Below are positions 58,614-61,840 of a stretch of DNA of 64,000 bases, piece by piece. The DNA comes from Flavobacteriia bacterium (lineage in GTDB: Bacteria; Bacteroidota; Bacteroidia; Flavobacteriales_D; Crocinitomicaceae). The translations under genes and the position numbers were made by a program. The notes under the pieces were generated by a model, which was not told where the DNA came from, did not search any database, and saw only the letters and a program-made list of their open reading frames with translations. Where the stretch lies: the NCBI GenBank assembly GCA_016178305.1, contig JACOTM010000024.1, forward strand, positions 1 to 64,000, given 5' to 3'. Numbering within the stretch: position 1 is the stretch's first letter; the number at the start of each line of letters is the position of its first letter.

Positions 58614-59603
58614 ACTTTTTCAAATATAAAAAGAGCCGATATAGTTTGGAAAGACCTAATTGAACTTCATAAAAAAGAGAATTTCCACTTTGGCCAATAT
58701 GATTCAGATAAACATATTGTATCCACTTTTACTGTTGATGAATCGAATACTCCGATTGATTCCCGATATTTACAGGTAGATGAATCACCTATTAAGGTTC
58801 AAGACAAAGATAAGAAAAAGTATACTTTTGATAAAACAAGCGGTAGCGCAGTTGGAGCTACACATACTAGTTATATGTGAGTGTATCATGCTCCAATATT
58901 GAAAAATGTTTATTTTGATTATCGAAAAGGGAGAACACAAGAAGGACCTAAAGAAATGTTAAACGAATTTGAAGGTTATCTTCAAACAGATGGCTATGGG
59001 GCTTATCATCAGTTTGGTCTAAAAGAGCATATTACTCATATAGGATGCTGGGCACATGCCCGAAGGTATTTTGAAAAAGCATTGGGTTACAACAAAGCCA
59101 ATGCTTCACATGTAATGGTACTGATTCAAAAATTATACGATGTAGAACGAAAGGCAACTTTATTAAAGTTAGATCCTGCTGGACGAAAAACCTTACGATT
59201 AGACGATTATCATCCCATTTTGAATGAAATTGGAACTTATATTGCTGTGCAATCAAGAATAGAATTACCGAAAAGTCCTTTGGGGAGAGCATATGAATAT
59301 TGCCTAAACCGATGGGACACTTTACTCGATTATCTAAAAGATGGAAATCTGCTAATCGACAATAATCTTATTGAAAATGCTATTCGTCCGCTAGCACTTG
59401 GTAGAAAGAATTATCTATTTGCTGATTCACATGATGCAGCTAAGAATATTGCAATGTATTATTCTTTTTTTGCAACCTGTAAGAAGAATGAAATTAATCC
59501 TCTCAAGTGGTTGTGTTATGTTCTAATGAATATCAATAACACCAAAGTACCTGAACTTAATAAGTTGTTGCCACAGTATATTGATCCTAATTTATTGGAT
59601 TAG
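58614..59603 (+). pseudogene. Decayed IS66-family transposase (C-terminal portion)
   Basis: The frame shows IS66 transposase signatures: YLQVDESPIKVQDKD (first catalytic Asp region), YLQTDGYGAYHQFG, IGCWAHARRYFEKAL, and the end LIDNNLIENAIRPLALGRKNYLFADSHDAAKNIA with the catalytic Glu. It is interrupted by TGA at 58878-58880, where related proteins have Trp (SYM-W-VYHAP; TGG to TGA). Twelve extra codons (KYTFDKTSGSAV) sit between DKDKK and GATH. The N-terminal half of the transposase and the accessory tnpA/tnpB genes are missing, and the frame upstream of about 58760 does not look like IS66. No inverted termini or target duplication were found. Confidence 0.85.
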
Positions 59604-59821: not shown

Positions 59822-60115
59822 TTAATTACATAAAATATTATAATTATTCAATAAATGATTTGCAGAACATTTTGCCCTTTTGGAGCTATAAGCTATCCAT
59901 GTTTTACCGTAATAATCGCAATGATAAGTTCCAACAACTTTATCTAGTGCTACCGAAACTTCCTTATGTGTGACACCCGAATGATCCCAATTTTTATAAT
60001 CTTCAAGACTTCTTGGAGAAATAACGACATCTAAAGACCATTCAAATGATGGTGGATTATCATAAAGCCGATTTAAACGATTTACTCCTTCATCAAAAAA
60101 ATATGTTGTTACCAT
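59822..60115 (-). CDS. Small protein of unknown function
   Basis: 97 residues, no signal peptide or membrane helix. The sequence is rich in Tyr, His and Cys (VVGTYHCDYYGKTWIAYSS, ending NNYNILCN). I do not recognise a family. It sits between the IS66 remnant and fic, transcribed the same way as fic but 75 bases beyond its stop, so it could be an accessory or cargo gene. The frame is open, the start ATG is plausible and codon use is like the neighbours. Confidence 0.5.
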   Translation of the reverse strand: MVTTYFFDEGVNRLNRLYDNPPSFEWSLDVVISPRSLEDYKNWDHSGVTHKEVSVALDKVVGTYHCDYYGKTWIAYSSKRAKCSANHLLNNYNILCN

Positions 60116-60190: not shown

Positions 60191-61660
60191 TTATTCCAAA
60201 CCTGCATCAATTACCAAGTCAACATTGAATTGTGAATTTACACTGTCGGATTGAATTTCAAATACAACCTTCATCGGAAATTCATTATCCGAAGGCAAGC
60301 CACCGGCTAACGAATCCGGAATACTAATTGGTTCAATTAAATTAAAGATTGGATCATGACTAAATGGGGAAACGAATGTGCTTAACCCATATACATTTTG
60401 ACGCATAATCCCATTTTGACTAATGCATTCGACACGAAGCTTTAATCCTTCGTTGAAAAGTTTTGCACTCCATTCGTTGGGATCATTCCATTGAAATAAT
60501 GGGCGAAGCATGATTTTATTAATATCAATAAAATGACTTCGATGTGATAGCACACGTTCTTGTTTTGGTTGTTCAATTGTAAATTTCATTATCACATTTT
60601 TTTGAATTTTAATTCCTTGGACAATTGTATAATTTGTTCCTTTTCCAACACCATGTTGCTCAACAAATTTCGCTACTGTCAATTCTGCTAACATTCGTTT
60701 GACTGTAGGTAAAGCTATACCCAATTTCAGTGCAATTTGACTTGATTGGCAACCAGGGTTATTTTCGATAAAAGTCAATACCGTTTTTTCCTTAGGAGAT
60801 AATTTATTTTCTCGCTTTTGGCCTTCCAATTTATTGACTAATTTGGCCTGAATATTACTTAAACAAGAAGTGAAAAATAGTACCCATGCTTTTACTTCTT
60901 CTCCTGGACGCTTTTGTTGACATTCCATTAACACGCGATAATATTCGGGTTTGCGTTGTTCTATTTCATGCTCAAAACTGACGTATTGTACCCAATTATA
61001 TCCATTTTTCAGTAGCAGTAACGTTCCTATTAAGCGACTCAAACGTCCATTACCATCTTGAAAAGGGTGGATACTTAGGAATTCATATACAAAAGCTGCA
61101 GCTTTTAATAATGAAGGTGTTTGATTATCTGAATTGTACCATTCAATCAATTCTCTCATCGCATCCTCTGTTTCTATTCCGGGAGGGGTTGTATTAAAAA
61201 TAATGGTTTTAGAACCATCCGGATTTGTTGCTTCAACAGAATTTGAATTTTTCTTATAACCACCTTTATGCCATTTATCTTTATCGCTGAATTTCATCAG
61301 TTGGTTATGCAGATTCATGATACTGCTTTCATTTATTGAAATATCTTGAAAGCTTTCAGTAATAATATCCAATACGTTGAAGTACCCAATCACTTCTTGT
61401 TGGTCACGTTCCTCTAATTTTGAAATAGTAAGATTTTCAATAAGTACCTTTACCTCATCATTGGATAGTTTGGATCCTTCAATTCGAGTTGATGCTCCTG
61501 TACTTTGAACAGTAGCAATGGTTTTAAGTTCTCTTAATGTTTGAGGCCCTTCCCTCTTTTCAATAGCTGTCCATTCACCACCAAAGCGATCAATGGCACT
61601 AAGATCATTTAATAGTTTGAAATCCAGAGTTAAAAAGAATGTATGAATTGGTTGTTTCAT
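60191..61660 (-). CDS. Fic-family protein (class II) with winged-helix domain
   Basis: 489 residues. The N-terminal inhibitory motif STRIEG (57-62) fits (S/T)xxxE(G/N), placing it in class II Fic proteins, which are self-inhibited. The catalytic motif HPFQDGNGR (198-206) is complete, so AMP transfer to a protein Ser/Thr/Tyr is expected. Residues about 288-350 form a winged helix (LSPKEKTVLTFIENNPGCQSSQIALKLG...VKRMLAELT), and about 140 further residues (355-489) form an additional, unrecognised domain. The gene stands behind two 25-bp dyads. Target unknown; such genes are typical of accessory DNA. Confidence 0.93.
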   Translation of the reverse strand: MKQPIHTFFLTLDFKLLNDLSAIDRFGGEWTAIEKREGPQTLRELKTIATVQSTGASTRIEGSKLSNDEVKVLIENLTISKLEERDQQEVIGYFNVLDIITESFQDISINESSIMNLHNQLMKFSDKDKWHKGGYKKNSNSVEATNPDGSKTIIFNTTPPGIETEDAMRELIEWYNSDNQTPSLLKAAAFVYEFLSIHPFQDGNGRLSRLIGTLLLLKNGYNWVQYVSFEHEIEQRKPEYYRVLMECQQKRPGEEVKAWVLFFTSCLSNIQAKLVNKLEGQKRENKLSPKEKTVLTFIENNPGCQSSQIALKLGIALPTVKRMLAELTVAKFVEQHGVGKGTNYTIVQGIKIQKNVIMKFTIEQPKQERVLSHRSHFIDINKIMLRPLFQWNDPNEWSAKLFNEGLKLRVECISQNGIMRQNVYGLSTFVSPFSHDPIFNLIEPISIPDSLAGGLPSDNEFPMKVVFEIQSDSVNSQFNVDLVIDAGLE

Positions 61661-61670
61661 TTTATTTTAA

Positions 61671-61750
61671 TACGTATTGAGACGCAATGATACGAAATAT
61701 ATTTGAATAAATCAAATCAAAATGATACGTATTGACACGGAAATATACGA
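61671..61750. promoter_or_regulatory. Two directly repeated dyads upstream of fic, probable operator
   Basis: Two 25-base units, 61671-61695 and 61726-61750, agree at 21 of 25 positions and lie 55 bases apart. Both contain the inverted pair CGTAT-N12-ATACG and begin TACGTATTGA. Read toward fic, a TATATTTC box (61694-61701), a near match to the Bacteroidota -7 element, touches the fic-proximal copy. Such paired operators suit autoregulation, possibly by the winged helix of Fic itself. Confidence 0.65.
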
Positions 61751-61840
61751 AAGATATACGATAAGTTGATGAAGTAATGTTTCACCTCTTAGTTCCAATC
61801 TTGGCATCTCATATTTTTTTAGATAAAAATGAATGAAGGA

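Follow-up and report, generated by a model that had tools for sequence, protein, structure and literature searches.

A phased array of direct repeats before a class II Fic gene of Bacteroidota and its probable reading by the Fic protein

Two nearly identical 25-bp sequences directly in front of a gene for a Fic protein raise the question of what form of site they make up and which protein reads it. The window, by which we mean the whole stretch of 64,000 nucleotides analysed here, holds such a pair, which a preliminary description had taken for two dyads of the form CGTAT-N12-ATACG. The two copies are real and far from chance. The pattern is present at 61673-61694 and at 61728-61749, the 25-mers are identical in 21 of 25 places by direct reading, and a pattern search returned these 2 matches and no more in the 64-kb window, where 0.02 were expected, and only 2 further matches elsewhere in the 3.6-Mb genome. 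In a repeat search the similarity extended over 33 nt with 85% identity and the copies 55 bp apart, and with the outermost box the repeated region runs from 61670 to 61760, which exceeds the extent given earlier.

When the copies are read on the strand of the gene, each of them is found to be three of four tandem direct repeats of a box that is CGTAT or a variant of it (Table 1). Relative to the fic ATG on the gene strand, the distal boxes start at -100, -89, -79 (CGTGT), and -69 and the proximal boxes at -45 (CAAAT), -34, -24 (CGTCT), and -14, so that every proximal box is exactly 55 bp from its distal counterpart. The period of the boxes is 10-11 bp, about one per helical turn, and all of them lie on the same face of the helix. 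The apparent dyad is seen because ATA happens to sit before the last box, and the supposed right arm, ATACG, consists of this ATA and the CG with which the last box begins. The 130 bases upstream of the window's gene contain 7 box pairings at 10, 11, 20, and 55 bp, a number that was reached by 0 of 5000 dinucleotide shuffles. The array is a helically phased direct-repeat array and not a pair of dyads.

Table 1. Positions of the array, the candidate promoter element and the parts of the fic gene in the window
Feature	Position	Strand	Basis
Distal module, four direct boxes, 11-10-10 spacing	61725..61760	-	CGTAT 61756-61760, CGTAT 61745-61749, CGTGT 61735-61739, CGTAT 61725-61729
Proximal module, four boxes, 11-10-10 spacing	61670..61705	-	CAAAT (degenerate) 61701-61705, CGTAT 61690-61694, CGTCT 61680-61684, CGTAT 61670-61674
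Candidate -7 element TATCATTG, one mismatch to TAnnTTTG	61685..61692	-	Fused with first intact proximal box; offset matches orthologues
fic gene (489 aa); class II Fic, winged helix, additional C-terminal domain	60191..61660	-	ORF; Pfam Fic 2.3e-17; PADLOC SoFic 1.8e-45
Inhibitory-helix motif STRIEG, residues 57-62	61475..61492	-	Fits (S/T)xxxE(G/N) N-terminal to Fic motif; definition PMC9755527
Fic domain, residues 109-216, with HPFQDGNGRLSR	61013..61336	-	Pfam; sequence
Winged helix, residues 287-345	60626..60802	-	HTH_IclR 24.4 bits, HTH_24 22.9 bits, above cut-off
Arg322 codon, recognition helix	60695..60697	-	Residue covarying with box base 6
C-terminal extra domain, residues 346-489	60194..60625	-	Predicted beta jelly roll, pLDDT 82.5

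The same array was found before related genes. Genes from the window's relatives, from the order, class, and phylum to which it belongs, and from named genomes were reduced to an orthologue set of 53 distinct members, at about 50% identity and above, which spans many Bacteroidota genera. It had been proposed that the 25-mer pattern be sought upstream of Bacteroidota fic homologues; the exact dyad precedes only 15 of the 53 orthologues, whereas 49 have a triplet of direct boxes at 10-10 bp in front (shuffles: mean 0.04, maximum 1), and this triplet is present in 32 of the 35 clusters that remain after clustering at 85% identity. In a first set of 21 loci, pairs of the same 5-mer at a lag of 10 bp numbered 167 upstream of the genes where shuffles gave 8.8 (z 42); lags of 20, 31, 45, 54, and 55 bp also stood out (z about 20 at 20, 54, and 55), and these peaks were absent within the genes themselves. 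The modules of the orthologues are about 45 or 55 bp apart, a spacing that differs mostly by about one helical turn, and at some loci (L013, L087) there are three modules. Among the box variants are CGTATC, CGTATA, CGGATA, CGAATC, CGTCTC, and CGAACC, and the boxes of one locus resemble each other while the sequence drifts between loci.

A scan of 26 genomes placed the triplet at fic in most of the fic-bearing genomes, and the few matches away from fic were mostly other sequence or plain tandem repeats; the background in a reversed control of the scan was similar. A regulon of other genes was considered and rejected, since outside fic the triplet is near background in these genomes. The array stays with fic while the flanking genes vary between genomes. 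The fic neighbour at L036 is an acetolactate-synthase-like gene, and in a Bacteroidia genome an AbiEi/AbiEii-like toxin-antitoxin pair (L038:2250-3910) adjoins fic, both named from reading their translations; the latter pair suggests a defence-type neighbourhood. Directly downstream of fic in the window is a 97-aa ORF (59822-60115) for which no Pfam or NCBIfam match was found, and beyond it lies the C-terminal part of an IS66 transposase (58881-59603). The SoFic gene of E. coli has a small antitoxin gene downstream. A dispersed repeat, CGGATARAAACGACTA..., at four places of the genome (G000 C21:40199, C21:75740, C21:90243, and C89:9330) is unrelated to fic.

Promoters of Bacteroidota carry TAnnTTTG at -7 (PMC7366714; PMC2483708), and an exact TAnnTTTG is present within the last 75 bp in 34 of the 53 orthologues (shuffle mean 2.0). 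In 20 orthologues it stands at one constant offset inside the array, -18 from the last box, and there it merges with the proximal triplet's first box, giving CG-TATATTTG-CG. The earlier statement that the two copies bracket the probable promoter is therefore only partly right, as in the orthologues the -7 element is mostly inside the proximal module. A protein bound at the proximal module would lie over the start site, and from this we infer repression as the natural reading.

The protein encoded by the gene has the parts expected of a DNA-binding Fic protein. Its winged helix, noticed in the preliminary description, is borne out by the two profile matches at residues 289-336, C-terminal to the Fic domain. 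Its sequence HPFQDGNGRLSR fits the class II active-site motif HPFx(D/E)GNGRxxR, which with N or K at one place is present in all 53 orthologues, and an STxIEG inhibitory helix is present in at least 42 of the 53. By its sequence the window's protein is a class II Fic protein and a putative AMP-transferase. The full-length AlphaFold model is mediocre (pLDDT 69.5). The C-terminal domain, which had been called unrecognised, indeed gave no family in a Pfam search, and a PDB fold search with its model returned nucleoplasmin-core jelly rolls (Z 9.2, rmsd 3.5, 101 residues), a likeness that we take as one of fold and not of function because jelly rolls are common. Nucleoplasmin is an oligomeric histone chaperone, and one idea is that the predicted jelly roll may be an oligomerisation module. 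A part for this domain in operator binding, as suggested earlier, did not hold: the 144 C-terminal residues are found, judged by length, in 11 of the 53 orthologues, and 38 of the 42 without them keep the triplet, so that a requirement for the domain is rejected.

The evidence that bears most directly on which protein reads the array is the covariation of the sixth base of the box with residue 322 of the recognition helix. Arg322 goes with C at base 6 and Lys322 with A: under Arg322 the boxes number 135 with C and 36 with A, and under Lys322 155 with A and 24 with C. Base and residue agree in 49 of the 51 untied loci, a correlation that was noticed before it was tested; the ties are L045 and L047, and the exceptions are L100 and L101, which have Lys322 but mostly C boxes of the CGAACC type. 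When the promoter-fused boxes are omitted, 48 of the 53 loci agree, 3 are tied, and 2 are exceptions. In the window itself the preference at base 6 is weak (3 C, 2 A, 1 T), and without the promoter-fused box the locus becomes one of these ties. Counted on a tree that leaves the winged helix out, there are 4 changes of the residue, 5 of the base, and 5 of the two taken jointly, which means that every switch of residue 322 coincides with a switch of base 6; the phylogenetically independent residue switches are only 3-4, all concordant, which is too few for a significant sign test. L038 (Arg, C) and L040 (Lys, A), which are sisters, fall in a starred clade. Column 322 fits best of all 489 columns, and among the columns with three residue types or fewer none comes near it.

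The conservation before 49 of the 53 genes, together with the covariation with the recognition helix of the protein, makes it very probable that the enzyme occupies the promoter of its own gene and regulates its own synthesis. Binding of the array by the Fic protein itself is well supported, by comparison and not by experiment. The probable explanation is that the winged helix of Fic reads the array as its own operator, with protomers arranged head to tail and with autorepression as the outcome. Several protomers would bind on a single face of the helix, one to each box of 10-11 bp, and would fill the two modules, which are about five helical turns apart. Occupancy of the proximal module would cover the -7 element and the start site, by which the Fic protein would repress transcription of its own gene and hold down the level of an AMP-transferase that is potentially toxic. 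That the protein binds physically, that it stacks head to tail, that it represses rather than activates, and that the enzyme is toxic are all steps that we infer. The autoregulation site proposed in the preliminary description finds good support in the conservation among 53 orthologues, the location at the promoter, the near-uniqueness in each genome, and the covariation with the recognition helix, but it cannot be called undescribed in kind, as the precedent of CccR shows (PMC9755527).

Other explanations have to be weighed against this one. If a Fic dimer bound each 25-mer as a dyad of two-fold symmetry, the occurrence of CGTAT-N12-ATACG twice, improbable by chance, would be accounted for, and the inverted repeat of the CccR operator would be a parallel. 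Class II Fic-HTH proteins of known structure (CccR and SoFic) are dimers, and such dimers would more simply fit inverted sites than a head-to-tail arrangement. However, the dyad is kept at far fewer loci than the direct triplet, the orthologues conserve the middle box within the dyad but do not conserve ATA as the three bases ahead of the last box, and tandem boxes without a palindrome, e.g. GGGTGTAAAT, are retained in divergent families. The dyad reading is rejected by the orthologue comparison and we hold it to be quite improbable. That the repeats are due to chance or are the remnant of a mobile element is a notion to which the nearby IS66 fragment lends some colour; it is refuted by conservation, for the orthologues keep the repeats in differing contexts and the box pairing was not matched in the window shuffles, and it has next to no likelihood.

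The array could also be bound by a regulator other than Fic. Against this, fic is the main place at which the array recurs in the scanned genomes, whatever the neighbours are, and base 6 covaries with a residue in the recognition helix of Fic, and we think another regulator unlikely. It is rather unlikely, too, that the array is mainly activating or a DNA gate, such that protein assembled on it would alter its AMP-transferase activity and control of transcription would be secondary. Coxiella CbFic2 has been reported to switch between AMPylation and deAMPylation upon DNA binding (PMC10628234), but that work used random DNA without a specific operator, and the overlap with the -7 element favours repression. 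A further reading to which we would give only a small chance is that the array is a scaffold on which Fic stacks head to tail in fibre-like form, with the stacking also gating the AMP-transferase. Loss of the array-bound state, e.g. when a phage interferes with host transcription or DNA, would then raise expression and release active enzyme, a toxin-antitoxin system of one gene in which the operator would be part of the antitoxin.

The nearest precedent for a Fic protein at its own promoter is CccR of Yersinia pseudotuberculosis, a class II Fic-HTH protein that represses itself through its HTH (PMC9755527, 2022). As in the window's protein, the HTH of CccR is C-terminal to the Fic domain. CccR, which is a T6SS effector, attaches close to the promoter boxes of its own gene and self-represses, and for the window's protein the counterpart is suggested by the covariation and the promoter overlap. 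The operators differ: that of CccR has two inverted AGATAATCAT boxes with 26 bp between them for one dimer, whereas the array of the window has two modules with eight direct boxes in total at 10-11 bp, which is not the CccR type of two inverted boxes with a long spacer. With SoFic, an abortive-infection defence protein of a single-gene anti-phage Fic family (PMC12249575), the likeness is in the Fic domain, the winged helix, and the N-terminal inhibitory helix, and the passages of its paper that were consulted mention no operator. The PADLOC SoFic profile matches residues 45-343 across Fic and wHTH (1.8e-45), but at the NCBIfam SoFic equivalog NF046030 the score is 51 bits against a cut-off of 550, so that the window's protein is a relative of SoFic and not SoFic itself; unlike SoFic, it has a further C-terminal domain. 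CbFic2 is likewise a class II Fic protein with a C-terminal HTH that binds DNA, as the window's protein is predicted to do; its binding was studied with random sequences, no operator is known for it, and its activity changes on DNA (PMC10628234). The arrangement of the boxes resembles that of OmpR/PhoB-type regulators (e.g. PhoP, PMC4832192), whose winged helices bind cooperatively to direct repeats about one helical turn apart. The Pfam matches of the window's protein, in contrast, include no receiver domain and its catalytic domain is unrelated, and this resemblance, drawn by analogy, is one in the way of working and not of kinship.

Among more distant Fic-HTH genes there are tandem boxes of other sequence, GGGTGT and GGATA. 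Boxes of the GGGTGTAAAT type precede L052-L066, which are genes in another family of the phylum, and L096-L098, with a period of 10-12 bp and ending a few bases from the ATG, and at L096-L098 TATATTTG lies between the boxes. GGATA boxes precede L015 and L016, and GGCTCA precedes L094. In BtFic-like and other groups the repeats are inverted or mixed (L032-L034, L127, L128). The last two are other Fic genes of the window's own genome, each with different promoter repeats of its own (TTGCGGT...ACCGCAA; TGATAGTATC twice). From reading these sequences, without statistics, it looks as if self-operators are common in Fic-HTH genes and the tandem form is confined to one branch.

Given CccR, Fic autoregulation as such is not new. 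What appears to be new here is the helically phased tandem architecture, its breadth, and a putative recognition code of one residue. The literature searches, whose coverage mostly excluded subscription papers, turned up no earlier account of direct repeats ahead of fic genes, nor of a tandem phased operator with a one-residue code. Class II makes up most of the Fic proteins, and little is known of the way in which its members are restrained (PMC9755527). A conserved and easily recognised operator with a one-residue switch would make the self-control of this anti-phage-like Fic group directly testable, the array may serve as a signature for finding such genes, and the array together with residue 322 would be a natural case of protein-DNA co-evolution within one gene.
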